From contig CAMXAZ010000005.1 in the NCBI GenBank assembly GCA_947179295.1, forward strand, positions 23,721 to 87,720: a DNA stretch of 64,000 nucleotides, in the 5' to 3' direction. Each line of letters begins with the position of its first letter. Within the stretch, counting starts at the first letter, position 1. Source of the stretch: an uncultured Muribaculaceae bacterium (GTDB lineage: Bacteria; Bacteroidota; Bacteroidia; Bacteroidales; Muribaculaceae). A program made the translations under genes and the position numbers. This document shows positions 5,785 to 30,451 of the stretch, in pieces. A model generated the notes under the pieces. That model ran no database searches. It saw nothing but the letters and a program-made list of their open reading frames with translations, and had not been told where the DNA came from.

Positions 5785-5793
5785 TAACTTTGC
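5785..5793 (+). promoter_or_regulatory. Bacteroidetes -7 element for the XRE-hsdMSR operon
   Basis: TAACTTTGC about 24 nt upstream of the XRE start codon. Confidence 0.55.
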
Positions 5794-5816
5794 AAATAAC
5801 ATCAAGAAATTGTCCC

Positions 5817-6050
5817 ATGTCAACAGAAACAATAGATATAGATATTGAGCGAATCAATCGACTAAAAGTAGTTTTAGCCGAGAAAAATAGAAAAGGCAAA
5901 TGGCTCGCTGAGCAATTAGGCAAAAATGAAGCCACCGTCTCAAGATGGTGCTCAAATACTGCGCAGCCTTCATTGGAAATGTTAGTGAGAATTGCATCTA
6001 TTCTTAATGTTGATCCTCGGCAACTGTTAAATGGCAATAATATTGATTGA
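5817..6050 (+). CDS. XRE-family HTH regulator
   Basis: KGKWLAEQLGKNEATVSRWCSNTAQPSLEMLVRIASILNVDPRQLL; directly upstream of hsdM. Confidence 0.85.
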   Translation: MSTETIDIDIERINRLKVVLAEKNRKGKWLAEQLGKNEATVSRWCSNTAQPSLEMLVRIASILNVDPRQLLNGNNID

Positions 6051-6052
6051 TT

Positions 6053-11700: not shown

Positions 11701-12193
11701 TTATGTCAATCAAGTTACCGGCTCGGCTGTCAACTCTACCGTTGAAATGGTCGAAGACCGCATCAAGGCTCTTACCGACCAACTTAAGTCGCTGTTCGGA
11801 GAGTTGCAAGCCGATAAAATGGAGTTCAAAAAACTCGGAATCTCTTTCCAAGAGAAAGCATTTTATGACATTCTTGTAGAGGTTCGTGACAATGCAAATC
11901 CTCCTTTTGAATATCCCGATGATAAGTGCATCGAACTTGCTAAAAAAATCAAAGAACTTGTTGATGACTCATCGCTCTACGCCGATTGGCTCAACAACTC
12001 TAAAGTTCGAGATCGTCTTGCCAATCAGTTGACAAAACTGTTTTGGAAGAACGGCTATCCTCCTCAGTGGGACGGCGTAGTTTTTGAAAAAGTCCTTGAA
12101 CAAGTCGAGAACTTCAAAGAAAACTCGTATAGCCACCCCCGTGGCTACGATTATCCATATTCAGATACCCCCTCAATAGCAGCAGAACCGTAA
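8783..12193 (+). CDS. hsdR: Type I restriction enzyme R subunit
   Basis: N-terminal nuclease PDVMLFVNGIPVSILELKNP, helicase FGATGCGKTYTML, SDEAHRTQ, GFTGTPVD, QTISRVNR. Confidence 0.95.
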   Translation: MSKKGKYYESEYEKAVIELLQAEGWQYTYGEQVHNRRVDEALIEDDLRSFIKFHYKDKDLTDDEINAIIARLRNSGGSTDYEATFNTIELYREGFDFSYPDGRASAFHFDYIDFDHWDNNIFRVVNQFEMHQGNEVRIPDVMLFVNGIPVSILELKNPTVENATIRDAHSQITVRYRRDIMNLLKYCALAIISDGSNSRLGNVFADYEFFYSWKKVNNEDKPSNGVDELLSMIKGALTPKRLLSIIRDFVYFPDKEYALQKADEGKEIEVVCRYPQFFATRRLRDNIMLHLRSSGGDGKGGTYFGATGCGKTYTMLFLARQLALRCKDKVGSPTVLIIVDREDLESQTGKLFANSINFLSNGQVRTFDSREDLGKELSLREQGGVYITTIQKFSSETGLLSERSNIICISDEAHRTQNNTGSKLRIVDRKKEEEDKSIAGQTDDSKLGAFITYGFAKYLRDALPNATYVGFTGTPVDETIHVFGGIVDSYSMRQAREDNITVDISYEPRLVHVNLDKEQSNLIEQYYKTCEEEGAKTDDIDTSKRAMSSLNVILGNPERLERMARDIIAYYDQRIEDQPELLQKAMIVCSDRTIAYNLYNTIITLRPEWGKTVKALDESKFTEDELRSMEAVPFVNVVATRDKNDPKAMYDLLGDKQHRKGLDRLFKDERSNFRIVIVVDMWITGFDVPSLNMLFNDKPLQKHTLIQTISRVNRKFSNVVLDEDGIRISGDVKKNGIIIDYLGIHSNLQQAMKKYGGDEPGDIGDVNLALEAFRNELKILKQITHGFDFSDFFGDNPLARLQCLQGAVEFLMMEEAMGVEYEGNVKPTTAFKSHVKRLKAAYNICNPAGVLSDDEVAWAQLLMGVYSYLVKITDSHHDVESRNRHVEQMVKEAISCSSVETIFDMKGEIDIYGDDFLKELDDVKMPCTKFELLVKLLRKAIKEYKKTNKTRAEHFYKLLQATVEEYHNRDSLAYVNQVTGSAVNSTVEMVEDRIKALTDQLKSLFGELQADKMEFKKLGISFQEKAFYDILVEVRDNANPPFEYPDDKCIELAKKIKELVDDSSLYADWLNNSKVRDRLANQLTKLFWKNGYPPQWDGVVFEKVLEQVENFKENSYSHPRGYDYPYSDTPSIAAEP

Positions 12194-12241
12194 TTTTTAT
12201 AAAAATATTGCAACTAAACAACTTAATAAACATATTCGATA

Positions 12242-13264
12242 ATGGCAAATCGTTGGAGAACAATAAAAAAATTACTCAAAATTAAAGATGTAAGACAGGT
12301 AACCCTATTCCTTATAGTTCTCTCTATCATCTTGATTTCTTTTATCATGTATTTATCTTTGGCTAATAGTGCATTATCAAAGTCACAAAGTTCTATCACA
12401 AATTATTATAGTGAACATCTACAGAAAGTAGATAGCCTTTATGTACATTTAATGGCGTATAATAAAGAATTAACATGCGACCTGATGGAATGCAATAGTA
12501 AAGTGTTGGCAGATTCTATTATATTACAAACACTAAATAACGGTCACACTTTAACAAATTCTCAATACCAAAATCTAACAAAGATTGTATCCACGCATTT
12601 AGATAAGATATATAGTTATCATAAAGAATATGATTCAAAAATTCAAAAAGATTCAGTTTTGCTAAATGTTGAGAAAAATCTTCTCGAAGGACAAACAAAG
12701 AATATGATAAATCTTCATTTAGATAAAATTAGTCATGAATACAGTAATATTACAGTATGGGCAGCTGTGCTTACCGTATTATTTTTAGTATTTAGTTTTT
12801 ATTCCATTTTCAAAATGGACGAGTTTATTCAGCAGGGAACAGAAGGTGTTAAGGAAATCAGACAGCTGAGACGAGAGGGATACGATGTTTTGAAAAGTAT
12901 AAAAGATGATAGCGAGGAATTAAAATCCAATACTAATCAAACTATAGATGAATTTATGTCTCAACAACAACTGAGACTATCTGAGTTTAATCAAACTCTT
13001 GAAGACGCATCGTCTCAAATTAGTATTATGATAGAGGAACAAAAAAGCAACATTGTTTTAGCAAAAGAAAACTTTGACAGGCAAAGCTTACCAATTATAC
13101 AAGATTTTGAGAAAAAGATGAATACTCTTTTGACTCAAAATGAAAATATGTTAAGCGAAAAGCTTATAGAATTCAATAATCTAGTTGAACAAACAAATAA
13201 GTTAATTGAAATCTTAGCTAGTCAACAAAGAAAAAAATCTAAAAGAGGCAGAGCAAATGGATAA
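12242..13264 (+). CDS. Membrane-anchored coiled-coil protein of unknown function
   Basis: Two hydrophobic segments (VTLFLIVLSIILISFIMYLSLA and ITVWAAVLTVLFLVFSFYSIF) flanking a helical region, then a long coiled-coil-like tail. Confidence 0.6.
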   Translation: MANRWRTIKKLLKIKDVRQVTLFLIVLSIILISFIMYLSLANSALSKSQSSITNYYSEHLQKVDSLYVHLMAYNKELTCDLMECNSKVLADSIILQTLNNGHTLTNSQYQNLTKIVSTHLDKIYSYHKEYDSKIQKDSVLLNVEKNLLEGQTKNMINLHLDKISHEYSNITVWAAVLTVLFLVFSFYSIFKMDEFIQQGTEGVKEIRQLRREGYDVLKSIKDDSEELKSNTNQTIDEFMSQQQLRLSEFNQTLEDASSQISIMIEEQKSNIVLAKENFDRQSLPIIQDFEKKMNTLLTQNENMLSEKLIEFNNLVEQTNKLIEILASQQRKKSKRGRANG

Positions 13265-13724
13265 GAATATGTTATATCATAAAGCTTCTCATGAGTTAAT
13301 GTCAGCGAAGCAGTGCCAATCTCAAATTTCACAAAAGCAATTTGAGCTTCAACTCCTTGATATAAATTCACGCTATAAGACCGATAATATAAGTGCTTTT
13401 TCTTCAATTGCACAAAAGCAATCAATATATTCTACTATTGCTAATCTTAAGAATATAAGAAATAATTATATCTATAATGCTATTGAAGCATCGCTAGACT
13501 TATGTAATATAGAGCTTAGTGAGAACAATTCATTTTCAATGGCAAGCATAGCACTTAATGCAATTATTTCGTTTATCCAAGGTAAAATATCCGCAGAGTT
13601 AAATATCCCATTTACATTACGCGTAAAGATATCTCAAATATATTTCAATTCTATAAGTATTAATTCACAAAATATTTCTTTGAAGATTGAAATTCAGAGA
13701 TTGAAGGCTGAGTGCCGTTGTTGA
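13257..13724 (+). CDS. Hypothetical protein co-encoded with upstream membrane protein
   Basis: ORF overlaps both neighbours by a few nt on the same strand; no recognised domain. Confidence 0.55.
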   Translation: MDKNMLYHKASHELMSAKQCQSQISQKQFELQLLDINSRYKTDNISAFSSIAQKQSIYSTIANLKNIRNNYIYNAIEASLDLCNIELSENNSFSMASIALNAIISFIQGKISAELNIPFTLRVKISQIYFNSISINSQNISLKIEIQRLKAECRC

Positions 13725-15247
13725 TGAATATGAAGATTGACGATATAAAGACTTTGATTGCTTCCGATGAGTCGCGGACTCTTGAGCTGAAGAAAAGTAC
13801 CGGCGAGTTGAAGGACGGTATGCATGCGGCATGCGCGTTTCTGAATACTGATGGCGGTTGGTTGATTTTCGGAGTTACACCAAAGTCGCTTAAAATTATT
13901 GGGCAGGAAGTAACGGACTCGACAAAGCGAGAGATTTCTCAGGCTTTGGCAGGGATAGAACCTGCTTATGATATACAACCGATATACGTTGATGTCCCGG
14001 ATCATCCCGGCAATAAAGTAATTGCTTTCCATTTCGACGGTTGGAAATGGGGAGATCGTCCATATACATATAGAGGCCGACCTTATTACAAGCTTGAAAG
14101 TACTACTAAGATAATGCCTCGCGATATGTATGAGGATCGTCTTAGGGCATACGAGCCGCAGTCGTACGCTTGGGAGACATTCCCGGCGGAGGGTGTTCGT
14201 CTATCTGATCTGAACCGCGACAGGATACTTGGCTGCATTCGTCTTGGAGTGGAAGGTGGACGAATCCCGGAATCGGCATTGTCTGCTCCAATTGAGGACA
14301 CTTTAGCAAAGTGGAAACTTACTGTCAATGGAATTCCAACCAACGGTGCCGCTATGCTTTTCTCAAATAATATCTACCCATACGATAATTTCCAGTTGAG
14401 ATTGGCTCGTTTCCTCGGTACGAATAAACTTGAGTTCATCGACAATCAACGTGTAGAGGGAAATTTCTTCGACCTTCTTGACGCTGGCATGGCTTTCTTT
14501 TTCAAGCATCTTAATCTCAGCGGCAAGATAACGAATAGAAGCCTGATGAGAGAGGAGCGACTTGAAGTGCCGGTCAAAGCGTTAAGAGAAGCACTGATCA
14601 ATGCCTTGTGTCATCGCCAATGGGAGAAACAGAATCTGACAATCAGTATCGCCGTCTATGACGACCGCGTTGAGATTGCCAATCCGGGCGTCTTCCCACC
14701 TCAGATTCCGATAGAGCACGTCAAAGAGTCGCATGAGTCATACCCCTACAATCGCAATATGGCGCAGGCTCTCTATCGATCAACCTTCCTTGAAAGTTGG
14801 GGCAGCGGCATCCATCGCATAATCGAAGCCTGCCGCGAGCAAGGAGTCGAAGACCCGACATGGCGTTGGGACGGCGGTTTCGTCTACGTCACCTTCAAAC
14901 GACCGACCAAGTTGGACTCTCAGACCGCTCAACTATCGACCAAACAAGAGGACGAACCGCTCAACCACCGCTCAACTACCGCTCAACCACCGCTCAACTA
15001 CCGTCCAAGTACCGCTCAAGTTCAAAAACTCATCCTTTCGATGAATGAGGAATATATGACAATGAGTGAACTAATGGAGTGTGTGGGATTAAAGCATCGG
15101 ACAACATTCAGAGAGAACTACTTACTTCCGGCTATAGAAGATAACGCTATAGGGTTGTTATATCCCGATGTTCCCAATCACCCGAAACAGAAATACTATC
15201 TTACCGAGAAAGCTAAAGCTTGGAAGGGAAAAAAAGGCAACAATTAA
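13724..15247 (+). CDS. AlbA_2 (Schlafen-like) domain protein with C-terminal winged-helix-like region
   Basis: ESRTLELKKSTGELKDGMHAACAFLNTDGGWLIFGV and EALINALCHRQW...VEIANPGVFP; typical AlbA_2/ATP-binding regulator architecture. Confidence 0.85.
   Translation: MNMKIDDIKTLIASDESRTLELKKSTGELKDGMHAACAFLNTDGGWLIFGVTPKSLKIIGQEVTDSTKREISQALAGIEPAYDIQPIYVDVPDHPGNKVIAFHFDGWKWGDRPYTYRGRPYYKLESTTKIMPRDMYEDRLRAYEPQSYAWETFPAEGVRLSDLNRDRILGCIRLGVEGGRIPESALSAPIEDTLAKWKLTVNGIPTNGAAMLFSNNIYPYDNFQLRLARFLGTNKLEFIDNQRVEGNFFDLLDAGMAFFFKHLNLSGKITNRSLMREERLEVPVKALREALINALCHRQWEKQNLTISIAVYDDRVEIANPGVFPPQIPIEHVKESHESYPYNRNMAQALYRSTFLESWGSGIHRIIEACREQGVEDPTWRWDGGFVYVTFKRPTKLDSQTAQLSTKQEDEPLNHRSTTAQPPLNYRPSTAQVQKLILSMNEEYMTMSELMECVGLKHRTTFRENYLLPAIEDNAIGLLYPDVPNHPKQKYYLTEKAKAWKGKKGNN
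14957..15022 (+). repeat. 11-bp tandem repeat x6 inside the AlbA_2 gene
   Basis: CCGCTCAACCA CCGCTCAACTA CCGCTCAACCA CCGCTCAACTA CCGTCCAAGTA CCGCTCAAGTT. Confidence 0.9.
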
Positions 15248-15263
15248 TTCAATACCTAAAAAT

Positions 15264-16691
15264 ATGGCGAACAAAAACACGATGGAAGAATATCGAAATT
15301 TCCTTAAAGAAGGAGGTAACATTATTAAGACTCGTGATGATCGTGATCTTATATGGATTGCTAGTAATGGTGTTATTCAAAATCAGGAAGACTGCGATTG
15401 GGGTATAGAAGAGACCGATGTTATAGACAATCGGATTTTCCGCAAAAGAATTGAACCGTGGTTGACATCCTTGTTCCAATCTGAACATCTATCCTTGTTA
15501 TGCGGGTCGGGAATATCCAATGCAATAAGTTTCAAAGCAGGAGCGAACGGAGGTGCATCCATGGCCACTAAGAAATTCAATACTTTCAAGGATGAAATAG
15601 AAGATGCAGCTTCAGCAACTGCAGAGGCTTGCGGGCGAGATAAAGGTAATATTGAAGACCAAATAAGAACAGCTAACGACTTATTACGTGGGCTCAAAAT
15701 ACTAAGGAAATCAGAGGAAGCCAAGACTCTTGAAAGTGAGTTAACCGAAATAATTAGAGACTTTGCTCAATCAATTTTAAATACTGAGAGAGCCATTGCT
15801 ATTGTAAAGGAAGAACAACGTAATGAGGCCTATGCCGTTTTGGTAAACTTTATTCTAAGTTTTGCGAGTAGAACGGGAAACAGAGAAAGATTAAACATTT
15901 TCACAACAAACTATGATAGGCTAATTGAGGTAGGAGCTGAGTTAGCAGGCATTCATCTAATGGATCGGTTTGTTGGTACAATGATGCCAATTTTCAGATC
16001 CTCGCGTTTGAACTTAGACCTACATTATAATCCCCCAGGAATACGGGGTGAACCCCGCTATTTAGAGGGCGTGGCACGAATAACCAAACTTCACGGTTCG
16101 ATAGACTGGGTACAAAACAAAGGCGAGATAAGGAGAATGGGGTTACCGTTTGGTGCTGAGAATATAACTCCCTATCTCCAGGCACCGGGGCTGTATGGAA
16201 CTGATGCCCTCAAAGTAATGATTTATCCGAATTCAGCTAAAGATCGAGAAACAGCAGAATATCCATACGTGGAGTTATTCCGTGATTTTGCTGCATCCAT
16301 ATGTCGACCTAACAGTACTTTAGTTACCTATGGATATGGGTTTGGTGACGAGCATATCAATCGGGTTATCCAAGATATGCTTACCATTCCTTCAACTCAT
16401 CTGGTGATTATTTCTTTTGATGATCCTATTGGACGTATTCTTCAATTCTACAAACATTCGCCTCATCATACTCAAATATCAGTATTGATGGGAAGAAATC
16501 TTGGAGACATCACGAATCTAACCAATGATTATCTTCCTAAAGCAGCTATTGATAAAACAACCATTCGTATGGCTGAGCTACTACAACGTAGATTCGGAAC
16601 ATCTTCAAATACGTCCGAAAACGTCACCCATACAACCTCAGAAATCTCAAGTTCAACAGAAGAAACAAAGGATATCAAAGATTCGATATGA
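15264..16691 (+). CDS. SIR2-family protein of a SIR2-HerA defence pair
   Basis: LLCGSGISNAIS, IFTTNYDRLIE, ITKLHGSIDW, VTYGYGFGDEHINRVI; stop overlaps HerA start. Confidence 0.85.
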   Translation: MANKNTMEEYRNFLKEGGNIIKTRDDRDLIWIASNGVIQNQEDCDWGIEETDVIDNRIFRKRIEPWLTSLFQSEHLSLLCGSGISNAISFKAGANGGASMATKKFNTFKDEIEDAASATAEACGRDKGNIEDQIRTANDLLRGLKILRKSEEAKTLESELTEIIRDFAQSILNTERAIAIVKEEQRNEAYAVLVNFILSFASRTGNRERLNIFTTNYDRLIEVGAELAGIHLMDRFVGTMMPIFRSSRLNLDLHYNPPGIRGEPRYLEGVARITKLHGSIDWVQNKGEIRRMGLPFGAENITPYLQAPGLYGTDALKVMIYPNSAKDRETAEYPYVELFRDFAASICRPNSTLVTYGYGFGDEHINRVIQDMLTIPSTHLVIISFDDPIGRILQFYKHSPHHTQISVLMGRNLGDITNLTNDYLPKAAIDKTTIRMAELLQRRFGTSSNTSENVTHTTSEISSSTEETKDIKDSI

Positions 16692-18739
16692 CCTCACCTA
16701 TAGAACATTTAGCATCTCTACGTGTCGGTACAGTTGAGTATATTTCTCCTGATAAGATAGAAGTACAATTGGATATTGACTCACCCGATAATATTGCCTT
16801 AAACACTGGCTACCCAAGAAATTTTCCTCGCATCAACGGTTTTGTAATGATTCCGATTGACCTCGGCTTTGTAGTTGGACAGGTTACTTGGATAACCATT
16901 CAACGCTCACCTTATCCTAAACGAAGAGGATTTCAGGATTTTGGACTTATAGATTTACCATTCCCTTTAAGAAGAATGGAACTTCAGCCTGTCGGCACAC
17001 TTTGTGTCAATGAAATCGGTTATAAATTTAAGCGTGGTCTAGAGACCTTTCCATCAGTAGGTGATATTGTCATTCTTCCTACTGAAGATCAATTACGTGC
17101 CATAATTGAATCCGGAGAAAACAGACGCGTCTATATTGGCAACAGTCCATTATTAGGGAACGCTAAAGTCATGATTGATCCAGATCGTCTTTTCGGGCGA
17201 CATCTTGCTGTGTTAGGAAATACAGGAAGTGGTAAATCATGTTCAGTCGCTGGACTTATACGTTGGTCCCTTGAAAGTGCAAAAGACAAAATTACAGAAA
17301 CTGATAAAACAGTTAATAGTCGTTTCATTATTCTCGATCCAAATGGCGAATACAGTAAAGCATTTGCGGATAAAGAAGGTGCAAATATATACACTGTCAA
17401 TGTTGAAGGGAACACAAATCAAAAACAACTGGAAGTCCCGCTATGGTTATGGAATACAGATGAATGGTGTGGGTTCACTAAGGCATCCCCAAAGACTCAT
17501 CGAACGACAATTGTGCATGCTTTGAAGTCGGTAAGAAGTGGTGTGGCTTTTGAAAGCCATTCAAAAGAACATGAGCTGGCGAATTACATTAGGGTTATTA
17601 TTGAAGCAATTGAAATAAGTGTTAAGGATGGTAGTCCATTTATAAGTAGGCAGGCTTTTGGCTTTCATCATAAGCTAATTAAATGGAGTGAAGGTTTTTC
17701 CATTGAGGAAAATTTTTCTTCCAATCTAAAAAATCGAATAACTCAGCTTAATGACCTCATAGTCTCTTTCCAGACACAACGTACTGGTACGGGATATATA
17801 GACTATTCTTATTCAAGAGAAGAGATTAAACTACTTCTTCAATATTTGACTTCCGTATTTTCCGAGGCAGGAGGGCGAGAAGAGGAATTTCTTCCTACAG
17901 ATGAAGATAGTCCTATCCCATTCACCGGAGAAAATTTTATACGTTCTATAGAGGCAAATGCCGAGATTTTGAGTACCACTGACTACATAGTTACTCTTAT
18001 GCCTCGTATAAAAACTTTACTTTCCGACTTACGAGTACAGAAAGTCATAGATAATGGTAGTCTCAATTTGGAAGACTGGCTTAATAACTACGTCGGAAGG
18101 AATAATCACGAATCTCTGACTATCATTAACCTATCTCTCCTTCCGTCTGATGTAACAAGTATTGTCACAGCAGTTATAGCCAGACTGGTATTTGAAGCGC
18201 AGCAACGTTACTTGAAAATAAATAAAAAATGTTTACCGACTGTCTTAGTAATGGAGGAGGCTCATTATTTTGTTAAACGATATAATGATGATGGAGAAAT
18301 CTCTAGTCCAAATACTCAATGTTGTAAGGTCTTTGAGAAAATTGCACGTGAAGGAAGAAAATTCGGTCTTGGCTTAGTACTATCATCCCAAAGACCTTCA
18401 GAACTATCTCCAACTGTGCTATCACAATGTAATTCTTTCCTGTTACATCGGATATCAAATGATCGAGATCAAGAACTAGTACATCGTTTACTGCCGGATA
18501 ATATGAGAGGGATTCTAAGAGAGATGCCATCTTTACCGTCTCAATATGCAGTACTGTTGGGATGGGCATCTGAACTGCCAGTAATGATAAAAATGAGAAC
18601 TTTACCTAAGAATCAATGTCCTCAATCCGGCGATCCGGATTATTGGGATGTATGGACTCGCAAAGTAGAACGAGATATTGATTGGACAAAAATTTCAAAC
18701 GATTGGCAAAACAGAACTGATAAGATTCCAAATCAGTAA
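16688..18739 (+). CDS. HerA-like ATPase (DUF87-type) of a SIR2-HerA defence pair
   Basis: GRHLAVLGNTGSGKSCSVAGLIRW Walker A; VLVMEEAHYFVKR Walker B; SSQRPSELSPTVLSQCNSFLLHRI. Confidence 0.9.
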   Translation: MTSPIEHLASLRVGTVEYISPDKIEVQLDIDSPDNIALNTGYPRNFPRINGFVMIPIDLGFVVGQVTWITIQRSPYPKRRGFQDFGLIDLPFPLRRMELQPVGTLCVNEIGYKFKRGLETFPSVGDIVILPTEDQLRAIIESGENRRVYIGNSPLLGNAKVMIDPDRLFGRHLAVLGNTGSGKSCSVAGLIRWSLESAKDKITETDKTVNSRFIILDPNGEYSKAFADKEGANIYTVNVEGNTNQKQLEVPLWLWNTDEWCGFTKASPKTHRTTIVHALKSVRSGVAFESHSKEHELANYIRVIIEAIEISVKDGSPFISRQAFGFHHKLIKWSEGFSIEENFSSNLKNRITQLNDLIVSFQTQRTGTGYIDYSYSREEIKLLLQYLTSVFSEAGGREEEFLPTDEDSPIPFTGENFIRSIEANAEILSTTDYIVTLMPRIKTLLSDLRVQKVIDNGSLNLEDWLNNYVGRNNHESLTIINLSLLPSDVTSIVTAVIARLVFEAQQRYLKINKKCLPTVLVMEEAHYFVKRYNDDGEISSPNTQCCKVFEKIAREGRKFGLGLVLSSQRPSELSPTVLSQCNSFLLHRISNDRDQELVHRLLPDNMRGILREMPSLPSQYAVLLGWASELPVMIKMRTLPKNQCPQSGDPDYWDVWTRKVERDIDWTKISNDWQNRTDKIPNQ

Positions 18740-18980
18740 GAAGAGGATGAAGTAGAATCAATATGAATTAGACCAGTCAGCAATAAAAATGATACTTAGC
18801 TCGTTATTATAATGACAAGTGAGAGAATTTGCGAGCAACGATAAGGATGATTCCGATGGCTTCGGTAGTGCAGATTGATGAAAAGCGATGCAATGCGCCG
18901 TAGGAGCGAATGTTGGAGTTGCTGAAAGCTTTTCTGATAAAGAATTGATTTTTAGGATATAATAAAAGCGAAGTTCCCCC

Positions 18981-18995
18981 CCCAAGTGGGACCAC
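18981..18995 (+). repeat. Right attachment-site repeat (attR candidate)
   Basis: CCCAAGTGGGACCAC identical to 2285-2299; followed by terminator-like AGCAGTTACGA...TCGTAGCTGCTTTTTC, likely the original tRNA terminator. Confidence 0.85.
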
Positions 18996-19079
18996 TGAAA
19001 ATCAAGCAGTTACGAAACAAATCGTAGCTGCTTTTTCTTTTACTTTGAACACAAATCTGAACACAACTCCGATTTAGGT

Positions 19080-19513
19080 TCAGCGGATTTTTCCGGTGGG
19101 CACGAGGGATATCAGGAATATAGTATTATCTTTGCAAAATGAAACCAGACCAACTACTCAGATCCATCCTCCCCGAAGTCCTGATAGACAACTTCGACAT
19201 TGACCGCTTTGAAAAAAGCGATACCCGCTTCGATATATGGCTTGATGAGAAGAATGAACAGCTTAGCGAAGATAAGTACAATAAAAACATAATCTCCTAT
19301 GGTTTTGGAGATTACCGTACCATACAGGACTATCCCATAAGGGGGCGTGCCACATACCTGCATGTGCGGAAGCGCAAGTGGCTGGACAAGTCCACCGGCG
19401 AGATATTCAGTTATGAGTGGGATGTATCCGAGTTCGACGGCACAAGGCTTAACGCCGAGTTCGTCGCTTTTTTAAAAGAGGGAGATTGAAAGCACCCCGG
19501 TCAGCATCTCCAC
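19080..19513 (+). mobile_element. Truncated ISAon1-like insertion sequence (left end + orfA)
   Basis: Terminal-type repeat TCAGCGGATTTTTCCGGTGGGCACGA.. shared with 27053, then orfA. orfB is cut after about 12 codons (ESTPVSISTPYK*). Confidence 0.65.
19139..19489 (+). CDS. ISAon1-family transposase N-terminal region protein
   Basis: MKPDQLLRSILPEVLIDNFDIDRFEKSDTRFDIWLDEKNEQL...GFGDYRTIQDYPIRGRATYLHVRKRKWLDKSTGEIFSYEWD, recognised as this family's first ORF. Confidence 0.7.
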   Translation: MKPDQLLRSILPEVLIDNFDIDRFEKSDTRFDIWLDEKNEQLSEDKYNKNIISYGFGDYRTIQDYPIRGRATYLHVRKRKWLDKSTGEIFSYEWDVSEFDGTRLNAEFVAFLKEGD

Positions 19514-19515
19514 TC

Positions 19516-19965
19516 CCTATAAATAAATTTGCCATTTGGCATCCAAATGGTATGCTTAGATACCCCAAAAGTATTCTTATTGGGCTTTCTCACTATATGA
19601 GAAATCTTGAGGCGATACGGAATATGATTGTTCCCTCTAATAAATTTAAGGCAGAGCTTTTTGAGAAGATAATATTTGAGCCTAATACAATTAATAACAC
19701 TTGGATAAATCATATCTTCTTCAAAGAGTTATTTATCGTTGGCCTATCTTTAGATACTGACGAAGTTCTTCTTCGTTGGCTTCTATTAGAACGAGCAAAG
19801 TTATTCTCTCTATATCCAATGATGCATAAAGATGGTTGGTACATTGTTACAAATAGAGACTACCATAGATTAACACATGGCAAAAAATTCTTCTTGAAAA
19901 GCATCGGATTTAATATAATTACTATGGATGGCTACCAGGCAATGTATAATGCATTTTCAGAATAA
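19516..19965 (+). pseudogene. 5'-truncated SIR2-like protein remnant
   Basis: IWHPNGMLRYPKSILIGLSHYMRNLEAIR...WINHIFFKELFIVGLSLDTDEVLLRWLLLERAKLF resembles the C-terminal half of SIR2-like folds; N-terminal half absent, IS sequence directly upstream. Confidence 0.5.
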
Positions 19966-20012
19966 TACTTACATTAACGAACTTATATACTTAGAGGGCT
20001 TCGGCACCAACC

Positions 20013-20152
20013 TCCAGTTCAATCCGATACAGGCTTCCTTTATAGGCATCCGCCGTCTTCACCTATTACGGTTGCGTTATTTATGGCAGTTGTCAGTTTG
20101 TTGTCAGCCAAGAGGATAGCAGCCCAGTTTTCTTTTGAGAGATATGATTATT
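20013..20152 (-). pseudogene. Detached second copy of the rloB 3' tail
   Basis: Minus-strand *SYLSKENWAAILLADNKLTTAINNATVIGEDG aligns to *SYLSKENWVATLLADNKLTTTINNATAIGEEG downstream of the RloB ORF. Confidence 0.7.
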
Positions 20153-20194
20153 GCAGTTGAAGTTGGATGAGTTTGGTACTGACCGCATATTTAA

Positions 20195-23100
20195 TTATTC
20201 TTCTTTTAGTAATTGCTCATGCAACCAAGATTCAAAAGGTGTAGGATTTCCAATCTTATTATACACCAATTCCATATTCTGCTTAGTAATAAGAGTATTA
20301 GTATGCGCATACCCCAACTTGGATAATCTAATTTTATACGATTCTAAAAACCATTGTAACGCAGTATCATACATCATTTTCTCTTCATAAACTGCACCCA
20401 GATTATTAAAGGCACTTGCCGTATCTGGATGATTACGTCCTAATACTTCTTTCTGAATGTCTAATGCCTTTTGAAAATTATCTAATGCGGAATCATAATC
20501 TCCCATATTATACAAAGCAGAGCCAATATTTGTGTATATCATTGCAATATCCGGATGTTTATCTTTAAATATTTTTTTGCAAATTTCTAAAGCTTTGTCA
20601 TAATACATCAAAGCAGTATCATACAAGCCTTTGTCGTCAAAAACAACACCCAGATTCATATATGTGTTTGCTGTATCAGGATGTTCATCTCCTAAGACTC
20701 TCACCTGAATACTCAATGCTTTCTCGTAATATTCCTTAGCAATGTCATAATTACATTTCTCAGATAAAACATTGGCTATGTTATTGTAATTACTAGCCAA
20801 TTCTAGATGATTTTCTCCAAATACATTTTTCCTAATTTTTAATGCAGTACAGTAATATTCTAATGCCATATCGTTTTCTCCTTTACTATAATAAGCCATT
20901 CCTATGTCGTTATAAGTAGTAGCTGTAAATGGATGTTTTTTGCCCAACCATTTTTCACGAATTTTTAATGCCTTGAAAAAATAATCTAAGGATGAGTCAT
21001 ATTCACCCTGATTGTAATATATAAAACCAATATTGTTGTATATAGTCGCTGCATGAATACTTTCGGAGCCTTCAACATTATTAATATTAATCTTAACACC
21101 CTTATAAATATGCAATGCTAATCTGTTATACATTAAAGCACTTTCATATTTGCCCTGATCTACAAGAATCCTGGCGATATTTTTGCAGATGGATGCTGTA
21201 TAGGGATGGTCAAGTAAGAATTCTTTTTCCTGTATGTTTAAAGCCTTTTCACAGAATTCCAAAGCTTTATTGTAATGTCCCAAATTGCAATGGAGAAACC
21301 CAACATCGTTATATGCTATGGCAGTGGGTTGAGTTTCACCAAATAAATTCTGTTGAATAGTTAATGCCTTTTGATAGAATTCTAAAGAACGGGTGTAATT
21401 AGCCAATTCATTAAACCCCCATCCTAAAAAATTTAAAAGATTGGCAACCGCTTCTGTCGATTTATTAGCTGATACATGTTGCACAATGGAAATGATATGA
21501 GGTGATAATACATTGAATATATTCAACGATTCGGCTGTTGAAAAATCTTCGAATCTCAATTCATCAGCGATCATCACACATGATGCGACATATTCTTCCC
21601 GCTCACTTGTATTTAGAGATTTTCTTATAACTTCCTGCGTAAGAGGATGAATGTTTATATTATTTCCAATCAAACTTATCAAAGAATATTCCGTCAATTC
21701 TGATAAAATTTTTTCGTATTCACGTTCATTATTAACCTTTTTTTGTAATAATGGGAATAAACTCAACTGCTTATTTTTATCTGTAAACCAACAACGATTA
21801 ATATTATTGGAAGCGAAGAATGAGCATATATTCAACAACAATTTCGACTCCTCTTGCTCTAACATTCGTAAAGATAGGTTATATGTTGCTCCTACAGCAA
21901 GCGTACCATCTTCATGGTTACCTTTTTTCAGTGTATCTAGTACCCCATATGTATCCAATTCATTAATATATTCTTTGTAAGTAATATTTTGTTGCCGGAT
22001 AAATGCAGCGGCCTGCTCCAAAGCCAAAGGCAAACGTCCCAGAGCCTCTATTATATCATTGGCGTAGCCATCTGGCTTATGCTTTACATGAGTATCGAAA
22101 AATTCCAATGCTTCATTTGTACTAAAAACACCAACATCTATTTTATTTTCAATGGGTAAATTTTGTTTCCGTGAAGTAATGAGCAAATGCCGCATTCCTG
22201 ATACAAAATCTGTGTCGAAAGATACTAAATCCTTTATATGTTCATAATGTTCTACATTATCAAGAATAAATAACCATGAGTCATTCTCTTGCATCCACTT
22301 TCTTACAACATGTAGAATAAGTACTTGATCTTTTTCATTGCAATTTACCAATCCTTTTTCTACTGCAAATCGGAAAATCTCTGCTTGAACATATTCTTTA
22401 GAAATAGCCCGAAAAAAATATGTACCAGACTGATATTTGTTTTTATGAAATTTTTCATACTCACAGGCTATTCTGGTCTTACCAACCCCTCCTGATCCAA
22501 TAAGAGCCGTTACAGAAAAAAATTTTGTACATAGGAATTCCTCCAACTCTGTTTGAATCATTTCTCTGGTTACATATTCGGAATTATACTCAATACTATT
22601 TAGTAAGGACTCATTTTTATGCTTTAGTAACTCGTCTAAAATAATTTTGATAGATTCAAATTTTCCATCTGGAAAGAAAATGGGAAATATTTGATGTTGC
22701 TCTAATTCTGCTCTCCTAGATTGTTCATTTTCTTTACTACACCCTAATATGGCATAATGAAACATGCCTGAATTCGTAAGCTTAGTCCATAGTTTTATTG
22801 ATTCATCCATCTCATTTTCAGATAGTCTTAGGGAACTGCCCAGAAATAGGAAACTAAATCCCTTATAGAATTCAGAAAGAGTTTTTACAAGTGGAGAATT
22901 ATTTTTATAGTATGCTTCATTATAAGATTTACCTGTGAATATTATTTTTTCAGGATCAGAGACACAACCATGAATCTTATAAATAAGATGTTTTCTTTCT
23001 TTATTTACATTTTGCAGCAATGATACATTATCTGGCAAAGAAACTGGAAGCGAAAACCGATGTACTGCCTCAAGTATTTTATCAAAGTTAGTTGTAATAA

Positions 23101-23479
23101 TTGGTCCGTTAAATAAATAAGGAATAACGGATACAGCTTGCTTATGCGCCTCGCGCTTTTTTATTACATTTTCCCACCAATCATCATCCTTGTCATAGTA
23201 AAATGTTTGTTTAAAAATCTTATAAAACTTCTCTTTGCCTAGTTGTCTTTCAATTTCATCCGCTGCTTCCAATAGATTATCTGTCCGAAAACTTTTATCA
23301 GGACATTCGGCTTTTAAGTCATCAATAAAACCCTGCCAGGAAGGCAAACCCACAAATAAGGATAACCCTGCACCAATAAATGGTACAACATTACCACTCT
23401 TGCACAAATTAGCCAACTTGTTGAAATTCTCCTCATTATGAGGGAAATCGTTTGACTTTATAATATCATTTATTGTCAT
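20195..23479 (-). CDS. SIR2 - NB-ARC/STAND NTPase - TPR repeat protein (NLR-like antiphage candidate)
   Basis: N-term SIR2 (VVPFIGAGLSLFVGLPSW, ITTNFDKILE, IYKIHGCVSDPEKIIFT); central P-loop ALIGSGGVGKTRIA and WLFILDNVEH; C-term multiple 42-aa TPRs (kinesin-light-chain type). Confidence 0.85.
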   Translation of the reverse strand: MTINDIIKSNDFPHNEENFNKLANLCKSGNVVPFIGAGLSLFVGLPSWQGFIDDLKAECPDKSFRTDNLLEAADEIERQLGKEKFYKIFKQTFYYDKDDDWWENVIKKREAHKQAVSVIPYLFNGPIITTNFDKILEAVHRFSLPVSLPDNVSLLQNVNKERKHLIYKIHGCVSDPEKIIFTGKSYNEAYYKNNSPLVKTLSEFYKGFSFLFLGSSLRLSENEMDESIKLWTKLTNSGMFHYAILGCSKENEQSRRAELEQHQIFPIFFPDGKFESIKIILDELLKHKNESLLNSIEYNSEYVTREMIQTELEEFLCTKFFSVTALIGSGGVGKTRIACEYEKFHKNKYQSGTYFFRAISKEYVQAEIFRFAVEKGLVNCNEKDQVLILHVVRKWMQENDSWLFILDNVEHYEHIKDLVSFDTDFVSGMRHLLITSRKQNLPIENKIDVGVFSTNEALEFFDTHVKHKPDGYANDIIEALGRLPLALEQAAAFIRQQNITYKEYINELDTYGVLDTLKKGNHEDGTLAVGATYNLSLRMLEQEESKLLLNICSFFASNNINRCWFTDKNKQLSLFPLLQKKVNNEREYEKILSELTEYSLISLIGNNINIHPLTQEVIRKSLNTSEREEYVASCVMIADELRFEDFSTAESLNIFNVLSPHIISIVQHVSANKSTEAVANLLNFLGWGFNELANYTRSLEFYQKALTIQQNLFGETQPTAIAYNDVGFLHCNLGHYNKALEFCEKALNIQEKEFLLDHPYTASICKNIARILVDQGKYESALMYNRLALHIYKGVKININNVEGSESIHAATIYNNIGFIYYNQGEYDSSLDYFFKALKIREKWLGKKHPFTATTYNDIGMAYYSKGENDMALEYYCTALKIRKNVFGENHLELASNYNNIANVLSEKCNYDIAKEYYEKALSIQVRVLGDEHPDTANTYMNLGVVFDDKGLYDTALMYYDKALEICKKIFKDKHPDIAMIYTNIGSALYNMGDYDSALDNFQKALDIQKEVLGRNHPDTASAFNNLGAVYEEKMMYDTALQWFLESYKIRLSKLGYAHTNTLITKQNMELVYNKIGNPTPFESWLHEQLLKEE

Positions 23480-23483
23480 AGTA

Positions 23484-24755
23484 TCATATAATATATTCTG
23501 TTATATTTCCCCAAATATCGGGATCCTTGCTTTTCATTTCAAGTAACTTGGCATAAAATTTATCTTCATCAGCGAAGGGAATTAAATCTTTTTGTGTAGG
23601 CAGTCCTTCAAGATCGAAGTCAGAAGAAAAACGAACTTGTAAAGCAATGTATGCGGCAGGTTCATTGATATTGAACATATTTGTCCCAAATTGCTGGCAC
23701 GTTTGTCTCAGAGGTCGTAATGGCTCTAAATGAGAAAAAACATCAAACTTTCGTATGATATCATTTGAAGTCATTATATCAGAGGGAAAACAGAAAACAT
23801 ACACAACCGATTGTGAGATATCATCAACCGGCTTGTATGTGGCTACCTTTTTAATTCTATCTATTTCGACATATTTGTTGAGTGCAAAAAACATAGCTGT
23901 AGCCAAATCGAATGTTATATCGAGGCATGGGGTACTAAATCCATAATGTTGTTCAAGATAGTACATATCAGGGCTGTTGTACGGGTTTATTTTATGAGCC
24001 TGCCAACGCTTGAAGTATTCTTGATTTTCCGGTTCAGGAAAATCTTCCAGATCACTTAATGTATGAATTCCATACTTATTGTAATTTTTTGCGGATAAAT
24101 TTCGAAAATCTTTAATTCCGTCATAAATAATATCATCCGCATGTATTGTCTGAAAAATACTACGTGAACTATATGAAATTCGTTTCATATAGTCATTTCG
24201 AAATCCCCTCCAATGAGATGGCATTAAAGATCTTTCTTCACCATTAGAATTGCTAATCCATGGATTGAGAAATTTTCTTTTAAATGTAAAAATAGAGTTT
24301 TCTCCTCTATAAGCCCATCTATTAGATAACTCCGGATTAAATTTTGAAATAAATTTATCGATCTGGATCTTAGCATCTGCGATTGATTTGACTTCTATTG
24401 ATTGGATGCCTCTGGGTCTAAAGATTTGGGTATTATTTTGTAAATTTTTTTTTAGAACCTCAATACTTATAGAATAGCGGCGTCCGTAGAAACTATCATA
24501 TATAATTTCATCAGATTGGTTCATCATATAATATCCAGATGAAATTATATCATTAATAATCTCATCATACATTCCAATGGATCGTAATTTTTCCTGCAAT
24601 AAAGCACGCCATTTTTCAGTACATCTTTCAAAAGTCTCTATACTCATTTTTGTGAACTTTGATATATCCTTTAATAACTTACACATTTCAACAATCTGTG
24701 TATTCAGTCCATTATATTGGTCTGCTATATCCCAGATTGCAATATCTAGCACCAA
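23484..24755 (-). CDS. FRG domain-containing protein
   Basis: RWAYRGEN..FTFKRKF, YLEQHYGFSTPCLDITFDLATAMFFALN match the FRG-domain signature; 4 nt upstream of the SIR2-STAND-TPR gene. Confidence 0.75.
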   Translation of the reverse strand: MVLDIAIWDIADQYNGLNTQIVEMCKLLKDISKFTKMSIETFERCTEKWRALLQEKLRSIGMYDEIINDIISSGYYMMNQSDEIIYDSFYGRRYSISIEVLKKNLQNNTQIFRPRGIQSIEVKSIADAKIQIDKFISKFNPELSNRWAYRGENSIFTFKRKFLNPWISNSNGEERSLMPSHWRGFRNDYMKRISYSSRSIFQTIHADDIIYDGIKDFRNLSAKNYNKYGIHTLSDLEDFPEPENQEYFKRWQAHKINPYNSPDMYYLEQHYGFSTPCLDITFDLATAMFFALNKYVEIDRIKKVATYKPVDDISQSVVYVFCFPSDIMTSNDIIRKFDVFSHLEPLRPLRQTCQQFGTNMFNINEPAAYIALQVRFSSDFDLEGLPTQKDLIPFADEDKFYAKLLEMKSKDPDIWGNITEYII

Positions 24756-24777
24756 AATTTATATAACAGAAAATATC

Positions 24778-25356
24778 TCAAGAATTAAGCAATGTAAATA
24801 GTTTGTGGAGGTTGGAGTATGATTCGCCTTCTTCACCGATGGCAGTTGCGTTATTTATGGTTGTGGTCAGTTTATTATCAGCCAAGAGTGTTGCAACCCA
24901 GTTTTCTTTTGAAAGATATGATTACTGCTTGCTGAAAGTGAGTAGATAACGATGCAGGGCTGCTACTACATCATCAGACGTTGCGAAGTAACGGTTTGTG
25001 TTGAGGTAATGGAGTAGGAACCAGAATTCAATAGATGGCATACTTTCGCAGATGATTACTGAGGGGTTATTGACATAACGCTGGCGCATCGCATCAAATT
25101 TGGCGTTGTCTGCTTGGTGTATGCGCGTTACGTCCACATCAAATACACATACGGCAATACCGTCATCAGCAAGCACTCGCTCGACCTGACGCTGAATATC
25201 ATCAATATTCTGGTCGGCAAAGTTTCGTGGCTTGCATACATAGTTATACCCATTTAGGCGTTTCAAATCCGTGAAATAGAAACGCTCAGTTGCGCCCTCG
25301 CCTATGATTGTAATCGCGGGATTTTTGAGCTTACGCTCCTTAATTCTTCTTGCCAT
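24778..25356 (-). CDS. RloB-like protein; ORF interrupted by in-frame TAA at 24922-24924
   Basis: ITIIGEGATERFYF, VFDVDVTR, PSIEFWFLLHYLNTNRYF typical of RloB. Past the TAA the same frame continues 47 codons (SYLSKENWVATLLADNKLTTTINNATAIGEEGESYSNLHKLFTLLNS) to TGA at 24778. Confidence 0.75.
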
Positions 25357-25358
25357 AA

Positions 25359-26540
25359 TTACAATACGTTGGGAAGTGCGCCGAAACGACCGTTCATATA
25401 TGCGCGGTGGATGGATGATAGTTTGTTCAGTCCCTTGAAATCAACGAGAGAGAATAATTGGGAACTGCCGTCTTTGCCTTTCTCCGTAAACCACACTGAA
25501 TCCTTTCCAAAAATGTCATCAATATCTTTCAGTATTGGATCATAGTGGGTAGATACAAGTAGCTGCGACTGATTTTCGGGAGTATTGACAAACTTTAAGA
25601 GAATATACTCCATAAGATTGGGGTGCATCGACGCCTCAATCTCATCAATACACAGGAATGCCTGACGATTCAGTTGTTCATATATCATAGACTCCAGTTC
25701 GACCATGCGCTTGGTGCCGGTACTCTGGCAAGCCTCCGGGAGAATATAGTCCTGCGTTCCGCCGGCATTCTCAACCTTATGCCCAAATAGAGCCGCCATC
25801 TTCTGGATTTTAATGTCAGAAATATTGAAGTCAGCCTCCTTTGCGAATTGCAGTAGATACTCACGGAAATCCTCGCTGTCAGCAATATGCTTCTTTGCGT
25901 CATTTGATAGCATCGAGAGTGAACCACTTTGCAATGGCAGAATACGGTTGTCAATCCATCGGCGCATATTGTCAAGATAGGCAACTGAGACATTTACTTT
26001 CTTTAATGTAGCCAGTAAAGACATATTACGAAGACAGTTCATAGTCATAACATCCACCTCTGCCTGCGAAAGTTTTACAACAGCCGGATTGAAATTCAAT
26101 TTGGATACACCTTCGACATCCTCACGGCAGAATACTTTTGTCGGGCGATTGGTGAGATATACAAATAGCGACTCGTGGCAAACCTTTTCGGGATTTACTT
26201 TTAGCTTATACCAGTAGCGGAGTCCATCGGCATAGAATTTTAATTCAAATTCGGTATCGAAAGAAAGAGCATCTTCCCTTAATAGGAATGGCTGTACATC
26301 AGTACCGTCATCATTTGTAGAAGGAAGTGTATTCCAGAAACGACGCAGGAACTTGACGGCATCAAGTAGATTTGACTTACCGCTTGCATTTGCGCCAAGC
26401 ACAACGGCAAAGCGCAACAGTTTAACTCCATCGGGCATTACGACCACGCTATTGTAGCGATCATCTTCCGACGGTTCAAAACTCAGCTCCACTTCATCAC
26501 GAAATGACTTGAAATTTCGTATTTTCAGCTCTTGTATCAT
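25359..26540 (-). CDS. RloA-like AAA15/AAA21 ATPase
   Basis: MIQELKIRNFKSFRDEVELSFEP, VLGANASGKSNLLDAV, FLCIDEIEASMHPNLMEYIL, LLVSTHYD; RloB partner 2 nt downstream. Confidence 0.85.
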   Translation of the reverse strand: MIQELKIRNFKSFRDEVELSFEPSEDDRYNSVVVMPDGVKLLRFAVVLGANASGKSNLLDAVKFLRRFWNTLPSTNDDGTDVQPFLLREDALSFDTEFELKFYADGLRYWYKLKVNPEKVCHESLFVYLTNRPTKVFCREDVEGVSKLNFNPAVVKLSQAEVDVMTMNCLRNMSLLATLKKVNVSVAYLDNMRRWIDNRILPLQSGSLSMLSNDAKKHIADSEDFREYLLQFAKEADFNISDIKIQKMAALFGHKVENAGGTQDYILPEACQSTGTKRMVELESMIYEQLNRQAFLCIDEIEASMHPNLMEYILLKFVNTPENQSQLLVSTHYDPILKDIDDIFGKDSVWFTEKGKDGSSQLFSLVDFKGLNKLSSIHRAYMNGRFGALPNVL

Positions 26541-26751
26541 TTCCGATGCTATTTAACGATGCAAATATAGCAAAATTTCGGCGCACTACAAAATCAAAAC
26601 CGAGACTTTGAAGATTTTAATGCTGATTTTGGAGCATTTTACACTAATCGTTAAATTAAATAGTAGTGTTTTAGACTGCTTAAATTATTCATTTCAATTA
26701 AAAGCCACTATTTTTAACATGGTAAATGGTGTCCGAACCAATAAAAATGAC

Positions 26752-27008
26752 TATCTTTGCAGTGTGAAAGGGGTATCCCTATCGCCTTTCGGGACAGAGG
26801 TCTTGGTCGTAACCACATGGCAAATCATAGCGAAACGCTGAAATAATGCCGTGTGCAATTCGTGGACATAGAATAGGACACGAATGATAAAAACATTGAC
26901 AATCAACCCAGTTGAGTAAAAATATGTAATCCCCCGGCGGAGATCACAACAAGATTTATCAAATCGAAGAAAACCTCTGAAAATCAACAACTTTAGGAGG
27001 TTTTACTT
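26752..27008 (+). ncRNA. Candidate intergenic structured RNA (unassigned)
   Basis: -7 motif TATCTTTGC at 26752-26760; hairpins GAAAGG/CCTTTC, CACATGGCA..AGCG-AAA-CGCT..TGCCGTGTG, ATTCGTG/CACGAAT; terminator-like AAAACCTC/GAGGTTTT + T-rich; no convincing ORF. Confidence 0.45.
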
Positions 27009-27052
27009 TTTGCTTCCTACCCCAAATCGGCGCAATATATGGCAATATCGGG

Positions 27053-27362
27053 TCAGCGGATTTTTCCGGTGGGCACGAAGGGGATGTCAGGAGTATAGTG
27101 TAGCCAGTCTGCACATAAAGAACTTGATGTCGCCGACACCCCGGAACTGTGTTCTGAACGCCTTGATTTTGGCATTGAAGGATTCTGCCGAGGCATTTGT
27201 GAGCCGTCGTTCGAAATAGCTGATTATTGTGATGTCGTGGTTCTCGAAGGTCTCCAGGACCTTGTTGAATTCATCATTCCCAAAGGCCTCCACTTCGTTG
27301 TACCATCTGGCGAGATTCAGCCTGGCGACTCCTGCGGAAGTTTTCTCGTTGAATATGTCCAC
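27053..27362 (-). mobile_element. ISAon1-like IS remnant (transposase C-terminus and end)
   Basis: Minus-strand ARWYNEVEAFGNDEFNKVLETFENHDITIISYFERRLTNASAESFNAKIKAFRTQFRGVGDIKFFMCRLATLYS; IS end sequence shared with 19080. Confidence 0.7.
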
Positions 27363-27502
27363 AAGCTTGAGCCAATAAAATCACGATCTACAGCTGTCTG
27401 ATTTGGCATGATCTACAAAATCAGCCATCGCAGAAACAGATCATAACCTCTAAACGCTGATGATCGCTGCTGAAGTCACAATTTCACACGAGCAAGCCTT
27501 TT

Positions 27503-30451
27503 CTACTGACGATTTAACTTTGCGAGTAGCGGGGCTATGTTACGTCGCTTTGTTTCAATACCAAAGGTTGAATTTTCATCCTTCAACAGCAAGCGTCCTT
27601 CCTCAATGTCGCATTCCTTAATTGTGCCATCCAAACGCGTCTTAAGATATGTGATCGGCGCTCCTGTCTTTTCCAGGACAAACGGCAATAGCTCCGTCAT
27701 CGACTTTGACTGCTGAGTCGGATCATATAGCGCGTCTGTCAATTTGATCCCAACTTCCTCTGTGTCGAGTATCCCCTCTGATGTAAGAGGCACCAACACT
27801 TCTGTCACATACTCCACCCTTTCTTCCAGAGAATACATATTCTTCAGAAAGGCTACCCCTTCTGTCATAGCGTATCCACGCGCATCCTTGTCACTTCTGG
27901 CAGTAGCAAGAATCCATTTATAGAATGCGTCCTTGTCTACCTCATCATGTCTTAGATACAGAGCCCTGTGAGCCACAGCCATAATCTCGTCAGAAAGCGC
28001 AATCAAACCTGTATAATCGTCAAGTTTAAAATCTTTGTCTGTTGCGCGATAAAGCAGCATCAGTGCGCCTATGCCTCGTAGCCATTTATCATCATGGCTC
28101 AACAGAGTGCGCATCATGGAATCCCCTTTGCCGAACACTACCAGACTGAACATTTCATGCAAAAGCATATTGGCAGCAAGATATGCCGGATATATCATCC
28201 GGTCACCATGATAGCCCTGAACTTTCGCCCTGAGTTTCATCAAGGCATCGGCAGCCGCCACCGGAGCCCCCTCTACCAAAATACCGCATACAAAATGCTG
28301 CCCCCACGTAGAGAAATAGTCTCGCTCACAGCATGAATATTCCACAAGATACATCCGCGATTTGGAAAGCACCTCAATGTAATCCATATCAGCCAGACAT
28401 GCCAGATCTAAATTCAGCCTGCCTCGGTTCGGACAATTTCGGAATCCGACCGGAAACTCCGCATCATGACTGCAAAGTATGAAATCCTTAAAAATGGAAA
28501 TCCATTCGGGGGAATCCCTTACAATCCCGACGGCCGCTGCTGTGATCCGGGATACAAGTTCCATCTTCGTGGACGCAAGCATATTGCCGAGTGTGGAGAT
28601 TTTTGCCGGTATTGCTCCGGAATGACTGAAGGGGCCGTGCTGTATATCATCGAATATGAGCCTGATGCAATCCTCCGGATGACTTTGGAATCGGCGTAGG
28701 TTGAAAGCGGTGCGCACCCAATCCATAAACGCTCGGTCGGCAACTTCACGCGAATGTTCTGTGGAGAGTGATCTTGCTATTGCTTCCTCGGAATCGTAGA
28801 GGGTTGTCAGTCCTCCCTTCATTATATTGGATCCCATGTAGGCCATCAATTTTTCCAGAGCGTCATCGCCTATGCGCGTTACCAGCAGCGGTTGCTTTGT
28901 TGTGGCCCCTTGCAGCGAATTCGATAAGGTATAGCCTTCCGTATGGCCATCGGGATATGAAAGTATAAGATAGCGGTCGTGGAGTTTATTTGAATTCCCG
29001 GTAAGATTTTTCACCACAAGTTGCATCTCCGCAAAAAGAGTCGGATACTGTTGTATCATCATTAGGATCTTGTCAGCCCTGGTATCAGAAAAATCATCTA
29101 CGTAGGATGTGCCGTCAGGGTTCGTTTTCAGTCCTGTCTGTGTGATTACTGTATAACGGGCATGAGATTCCGACGAAGCAATGAAAAGCAATGCCACATC
29201 CTCAAAATACGGATCTTGAAGCAGGATGTCAGAAGCCCCCTCAGTTCTTTCCCTGAACCATTGAAGGAATTCCAATGCACCATGCACACCATCTTTGTCC
29301 TCGCCCGGATTCCACCCCTTGGGGAAGAATGCGTCATCCGGTTTTGTGCGGCACCGGGAATATTGCTCCTTATCGTGGGTTCTCCCCACGTTGCCCACAG
29401 AGAAACTATTGTTTGACACGCGTGTTATCTTCGCTGCATCATCTACGGCTCCTCTTTTCTTGTCGGGCATGGCATTACGTATCTTACTATGCCAATCAGA
29501 GGAAAGCTGAATCCGGTTGCTTACTATCTGCATGTTAATATTAAACCGCTTGATGATACTCATAGTGGCACGGTGTACGAGTCTACACTCTTTACCCTTG
29601 CACAACCAGATTTTAACATCAGTACGTCCAGGCCGCTCCGGCGAAGAAAAACTGAATTCCATTTCTGCGCCCTTACCCACCTTTTGGTAATGCACCTCGT
29701 CAGTCAATATTCTGTCATCGCCAGTAAGCCGCATGTTAACAATCACTTCGTCTTCTCCGTCATAAAGCTCTTTTCGAATAGTAACAATATGTGTTTTTCC
29801 GTGGTCTTGATTCGAATGAGTCACGAGCGAATGGCCGGACGCATCGCAGGCCGGACGGAAAAGAATTTCTATATTACCCACACGCCGAGCCATTATCCGG
29901 GTATCTGCCCCCAGAGATTCCGCTATGAAACGGGCTATGGAAGTGATGCCATTGTCTGGATCCGAGGGCATGATGGATCCGTAAGTCAAAAGAGAGGCCG
30001 GGTCCTGCAAGCGCCATGTATGGGAAAATGTAATGTCGCCAAGGAAATCGGCAACGATGCCCAACGGGACCTCCGATACTTCACGAGAAAAGTAAAAATT
30101 CAAATCCGACTCTTGCGGCGGCTTTATACCCCACTTGCGACATGTGTCAGCCAGCGAATGACCATTAATAAGGCCGGCAATTATATCGCAAATGACATCC
30201 GGACGGTCAACGATGGTTATAACTGCAACAAAACACCGTTTGACAATCTTTTCAGCAGAAGATTGCCGACTGTATGACAACGAAAGATCAATTTTTTTGA
30301 ACTCTCTGACTGAGACCGGGAGAGCCTTTGTCACAGAGAAAGGTTCCGCTACCGCATAAGCGATATGAAAAACCGGATTTTGATTGGTCGATCCAATACG
30401 AAGCACAAAGACTCGAAGTCTCAAAAAACGATAAAAAGAAGGCAGATTCAT
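27503..30451 (-). CDS. Large protein of unknown function; possible VPA1262-type / PLD-like domain
   Basis: Single 982-aa ORF; LLQDPYFEDVALLFIASS and KLHDRYLILSYPDGHTEGYTLSNSLQG resemble a degenerate PLD/HKD-like site. Family label is from memory and tentative. Confidence 0.6.
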   Translation of the reverse strand: MNLPSFYRFLRLRVFVLRIGSTNQNPVFHIAYAVAEPFSVTKALPVSVREFKKIDLSLSYSRQSSAEKIVKRCFVAVITIVDRPDVICDIIAGLINGHSLADTCRKWGIKPPQESDLNFYFSREVSEVPLGIVADFLGDITFSHTWRLQDPASLLTYGSIMPSDPDNGITSIARFIAESLGADTRIMARRVGNIEILFRPACDASGHSLVTHSNQDHGKTHIVTIRKELYDGEDEVIVNMRLTGDDRILTDEVHYQKVGKGAEMEFSFSSPERPGRTDVKIWLCKGKECRLVHRATMSIIKRFNINMQIVSNRIQLSSDWHSKIRNAMPDKKRGAVDDAAKITRVSNNSFSVGNVGRTHDKEQYSRCRTKPDDAFFPKGWNPGEDKDGVHGALEFLQWFRERTEGASDILLQDPYFEDVALLFIASSESHARYTVITQTGLKTNPDGTSYVDDFSDTRADKILMMIQQYPTLFAEMQLVVKNLTGNSNKLHDRYLILSYPDGHTEGYTLSNSLQGATTKQPLLVTRIGDDALEKLMAYMGSNIMKGGLTTLYDSEEAIARSLSTEHSREVADRAFMDWVRTAFNLRRFQSHPEDCIRLIFDDIQHGPFSHSGAIPAKISTLGNMLASTKMELVSRITAAAVGIVRDSPEWISIFKDFILCSHDAEFPVGFRNCPNRGRLNLDLACLADMDYIEVLSKSRMYLVEYSCCERDYFSTWGQHFVCGILVEGAPVAAADALMKLRAKVQGYHGDRMIYPAYLAANMLLHEMFSLVVFGKGDSMMRTLLSHDDKWLRGIGALMLLYRATDKDFKLDDYTGLIALSDEIMAVAHRALYLRHDEVDKDAFYKWILATARSDKDARGYAMTEGVAFLKNMYSLEERVEYVTEVLVPLTSEGILDTEEVGIKLTDALYDPTQQSKSMTELLPFVLEKTGAPITYLKTRLDGTIKECDIEEGRLLLKDENSTFGIETKRRNIAPLLAKLNRQ

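Follow-up and report, generated by a model that had tools for sequence, protein, structure and literature searches.

The FRG-domain gene and the adjoining SIR2/NB-ARC/TPR gene in the window, that is, the whole stretch of 64,000 nucleotides that was analysed, are read here, with reasonable though not strong confidence, as one transcription unit that would encode an NLR-like, NAD-consuming abortive-infection module. In the same reading the pair would be a low-G+C acquisition abutting the end of an RloAB operon, and the scrap of an rloB end found downstream of it would be the relic of another RloAB locus. Both genes are located on the minus strand and separated by only 4 nt, the FRG gene (23484-24755) being followed by the gene for a 1094-aa protein with SIR2, NB-ARC, DUF7779 and TPR domains (20195-23479). 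The open reading frames, strand, spacing and domains given in the first-pass annotation were all confirmed, and its description of the pair as an operon-like, NLR-type defence locus appears justified, as far as can be judged from the sequence, by the predicted SIR2 effector, STAND ATPase and TPR array beside the FRG protein. The G+C content is 33% in each of the two genes, 43% in rloAB and 47.5% in the window, and the change falls at the end of rloB.

The 1094-aa protein shows the tripartite order of an NLR-like STAND protein. Pfam matches were obtained for SIR2_2 (2e-19), NB-ARC (2e-11), DUF7779 and a long TPR array. The SIR2 motifs GAGLS (residues 36-40), TTNFD (129-133) and HG (170-171) are intact, as are the ATPase motifs Walker A (GSGGVGKT), Walker B (LFILDN), GxP and the MHD-like IHPLTQEV. 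Among known systems the protein resembles Avs5 (AVAST type 5, SIR2-STAND), a single large protein with an N-terminal PF13289 SIR2 effector carrying GAGxS and TTNxD, a central STAND ATPase and a C-terminal repeat sensor, which is formed by TPRs in some Avs5 as it is here. Avs5 hydrolyses NAD+ upon phage sensing (PMC12931631). However, the ATPase of Avs5 is nSTAND3 (PF20720) (PMC12931631), whereas NB-ARC (PF00931) with DUF7779 was found here and PF20720 was absent from the Pfam matches up to E=0.01. Therefore, the protein was not filed under Avs5; no Avs5 model was among its PADLOC matches either, and the FRG neighbour is a further difference from Avs5. The NB-ARC/TPR part (residues 299-1078) is shared with FxSxx-COOH-type NB-ARC-TPR proteins, as it matches the NCBIfam model NF040586 (fxsT) with a score of 309.7 against a curated cut-off of 300, but this model covers no SIR2 domain and no FxSxx partner was identified here. 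The SIR2 domain was also matched by LmuA of Lamassu (4e-19) and ThsA of Thoeris (3e-17), whose remaining domains differ.

Read from its TTG start, the FRG gene encodes 423 aa; an ATG is present 36 codons further in. The product was assigned to the FRG family by Pfam (E=8.4e-8; 33.5 bits against a curated cut-off of 25) and matched PDC-S15 of PADLOC (1.4e-7). The motifs YRG, QHYG and TxxLDxT are intact and an R-Q-F element follows further on; residues R150, G151, H270, T275 and D279 occupy columns that are among those conserved in 36 other FRG proteins of the order Bacteroidales. Identity to other FRG proteins of Bacteroidales is 14-23%. The YRG, QHxG and TxxLDxT core is thus common to this protein and the FRG-domain candidate defence genes (PDC-S15; PF08867); its long N-terminal region, the insert that separates YRG from QHYG and the STAND partner set it apart from them. 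Single-sequence AlphaFold models reached a pLDDT of 36 for the FRG protein and of 40 for the SIR2 domain, too low for the models to be used. FRG has been assigned to the ART superfamily and proposed as an antiviral effector and possible NADase (PMC9503650).

For the favoured reading, the following course of events can be proposed. The two genes would be expressed as one transcription unit. A phage-made or phage-altered component would be sensed by the TPR array, upon which the NB-ARC ATPase may oligomerise and the SIR2 domain may be switched on and destroy NAD+, by analogy with SIR2-STAND proteins such as Avs5. The FRG protein, as a member of the ART superfamily, could serve as a second effector or a regulator handling NAD or ADP-ribose. 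The pair itself would have been acquired, with its low G+C content, next to the end of an RloAB operon with a nonsense codon in rloB. We infer the mechanistic steps entirely from domains, motifs and gene order. Should the pair work as one system, a single NLR-like locus of a bacterium would combine two families of NAD-targeting enzymes. It would also supply a partner open to testing for the FRG proteins, which until now are mostly known as predicted effectors.

In order to follow up the pairing, its conservation was searched for as proposed in the first-pass annotation, and it failed to appear in every sample searched. The 198 genomes of the family and 393 of the order that were sampled, which are samples and not all genomes, yielded no relative of the FRG protein, and a SIR2-STAND neighbour was seen at none of 38 FRG loci read, so that the pairing is a singleton here. 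Scans of genome-contig and viral-contig collections with the FRG protein and the SIR2 domain yielded no confirmed relative. In phages, tblastn detected no FRG relative, and the SIR2-STAND protein was matched in its TPR parts only. On plasmids a single FRG relative was found, which shows 33% identity across its C-terminal half and has no STAND gene as a neighbour, while NB-ARC/TPR parts are common there. For the SIR2 domain, 247 genomes of the order gave a single distant match, located within a type I restriction operon, and its plasmid matches likewise lie in such operons. The FRG family as such (PF08867) is present in 32 of 295 genomes of the order.

Since the pairing is absent from every other genome searched, the FRG and SIR2-STAND proteins may act alone. 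It is quite possible, though short of an even chance, that they are two independent single-gene defences which became neighbours by chance in a defence island; this would agree with the 38 loci without a SIR2-STAND neighbour, with the finding that FRG genes in other genomes usually stand alone or next to unrelated genes, and with the status of FRG proteins as the single-gene candidate PDC-S15 in PADLOC. The 4-nt spacing, common strand and equal G+C content argue against chance, as they suggest that the two genes travelled together and are expressed together. Rather doubtful is the more specific proposal that the two proteins, as different NAD-handling enzymes, work jointly in a genuine two-component system; the FRG protein might, for instance, modify or license the NLR, or produce an ADP-ribose signal to be read by it. 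The locus probably combines known defence parts in a new way and is unproven as a system, and a broader search is needed before the pairing is called one.

Directly upstream of the pair lies an operon of the RloAB / AbiL type on the minus strand, composed of rloA (AbiLi) and rloB (PF13707, AbiLii). The rloA gene (25359-26540) is apparently intact and encodes an AAA_21 ATPase (Pfam AAA_21 3e-28; PADLOC AbiLi 9e-75). The full frame of rloB (24778-25356) comprises 192 codons and is interrupted by TAA at codon 145 (24924-24922); the first 144 aa match Pfam RloB with 1.6e-15. Beyond this 144-aa open reading frame the rloB frame runs on to its native stop at 24780-24778, and relatives in the same genus and family are intact with 191-192 aa and all have CAA at this codon. 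Therefore, the repeat copy upstream of the pair is the resident rloB's own end, and rloB is a nonsense mutant. Due to this break the RloAB operon may not be functional.

The first-pass annotation had described about 140 bp of rloB tail on both sides of the pair. A repeat in the same orientation does exist, and it is the longest of the region, but it measures 107 nt at 84% identity. Its upstream copy (24822-24928, minus strand), which is in frame with rloB, is the native tail and hence no extra copy; an extra copy is present only downstream of the pair (20048-20166, minus strand), where the last 43 nt of the gene are missing. The 107-nt match of this copy spans 20048-20154 and its homology is traceable to about 20166, i.e. 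over at most about 120 nt, while positions 20013-20047 have no homology to the rloB tail. A search of the assembly for rloB-tail matches returned these two copies only.

Over the 107 nt, the downstream copy is 84% identical to the local tail and 85-88% identical to most other rloB tails, and it is closer to the G090 rloB (88%) than to the local tail; the local tail is 86-92% identical to most others. The resident tail continues rloB without a break and, up to and including the stop, shares about 90% identity with relatives. The two copies differ at third codon positions in 12 of 17 cases (one-sided binomial P=0.002), as would be expected if they diverged inside separate working rloB genes. The downstream scrap would thus be the remnant of a different RloAB locus formerly located there, left by deletion of this second RloAB or by another rearrangement in the defence island, and not the footprint of an insertion. 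We infer this origin, since no strain with a full second RloAB was found. Two derived bases, one of them the TAA, are common to the two window copies only; this would agree with a closer relationship of the copies or with gene conversion between them and counts against the relic reading. Given the number of private changes, one or two shared derived bases can be a tolerable coincidence, a short gene-conversion tract being another possibility. A maximum-likelihood tree of the 107-nt tails contained too little signal to decide the relationships of the copies.

The shared bases would also be accounted for if circular DNA carrying a diverged rloB end and the pair had entered the resident rloB end by a single crossover, leaving hybrid tails on both sides of which the right one later decayed. 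This scenario, which predicts repeats in the same orientation around the pair and copies that had diverged beforehand, is nevertheless unlikely: no hybrid junction is seen in the left tail, which resembles its relatives as far as its stop, and the right tail breaks off within the gene and therefore cannot be followed by the resident downstream DNA, although the model demands this.

A promoter-like site of the Bacteroidota type (TTTG-N18-22-TAnnTTTG; a consensus match only) was located ahead of rloA at 26562-26592 on the minus strand. As it is the sole consensus match of its kind upstream on this strand near the operon, the FRG pair may be read from the rloA promoter. It is conceivable but very unlikely that RloAB itself is the system, with rloA-rloB combined with a swappable downstream NAD-targeting effector, here FRG and SIR2-STAND. 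The promoter position points in this direction, as do RloAB near FRG in 2 of the 38 FRG neighbourhoods read (L105 and L113), which may be mere defence-island clustering, and SIR2-type genes behind rloB in L039 and, by motif only, in L042. On the other hand, rloB is nonsense-mutated here, the G+C content changes sharply at its end, and unrelated genes stand behind rloB in most relatives. The SIR2-type genes of L039 and L042 are on the same strand as rloB, and two cases are too few to show a preference.

The mobile cassette envisaged in the first-pass annotation, inserted at the 3' end of rloB and carrying or duplicating this end so as to restore the gene, can be given hardly any weight, because the upstream copy is the native rloB end and the downstream copy is truncated, no closer to the local tail and different from it mainly at third positions, as separate working genes would be. 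The downstream copy restores nothing, being without the final 43 nt and not joined to rloB, which is itself a nonsense mutant. Moreover, no integrase or recombinase gene is present in the pair or elsewhere between 19516 and 24778. The comparison of RloAB loci at the rloB tail that had been suggested as a check revealed no second tail in the relatives examined, several of which are limited by contig ends. Repeats in the same orientation do flank the pair, and RloAB homology to close relatives does stop at the rloB stop (24773-24784), the DNA beyond differing in each relative. As the repeat analysis shows, the signature of an insertion can be mimicked by a diverged piece of a gene lying in a defence island.

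The surroundings are a mosaic of broken genes, a scrambled defence island, and a leftover rloB end fits this setting. The C-terminal half of a broken gene (19516-19965, plus strand) starts at an insertion sequence junction and aligns at 39% identity, over 99%, with the C-terminal half of a plasmid-encoded Sphingomonas protein of 308 aa. Before the break at 19515 lies the 5' part of an ISL3-type element (19072-19515, plus strand; weak Zn_ribbon_ISL3), 93% identical to the whole 1468-bp element (G090, L135). The 3' part of the same kind of element (27045-27371, minus strand; DDE_Tnp_ISL3 2e-16; 90% identical to L135) is found in opposite orientation. Together the two parts are short of the element's middle 704 bp, and the entire RloAB/FRG/SIR2-STAND block stands between them. 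An origin of the repeat as a product of an insertion sequence or composite transposon is unsupported, as the two parts are located beyond the repeat and point in opposite directions. Directly beyond the second remnant follows a gene for a VPA1262-family protein (27503-30451, minus strand) with an NF040700 domain above the cut-off.

An integrative element was delimited at the 3' end of a tRNA-Met gene (2285-18995; attL CCCAAGTGGGACCAC at 2285-2299, attR at 18981-18995), and its empty site is visible in two relatives (L138 and L140). Its cargo comprises a tyrosine recombinase, a mobilisation-type gene, a type I restriction operon and a SIR2 + HerA pair. As the element ends at 18995, the FRG pair lies outside it, and an assignment of the pair to this element was rejected.

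Divergent from rloA, a putative small RNA was noted at about 26755-27020 on the plus strand, with a Bacteroidota-type promoter, the nearly invariant core TGAAATAATGCCGTGTGCAATTCGTGRACA and a terminator-like hairpin. It matched no Rfam family, and its alignment gave weak covariation support. About a dozen further genomes of the family contain the core, some of them in several copies, and it often lies about 95 nt behind an AAA-ATPase-like gene.
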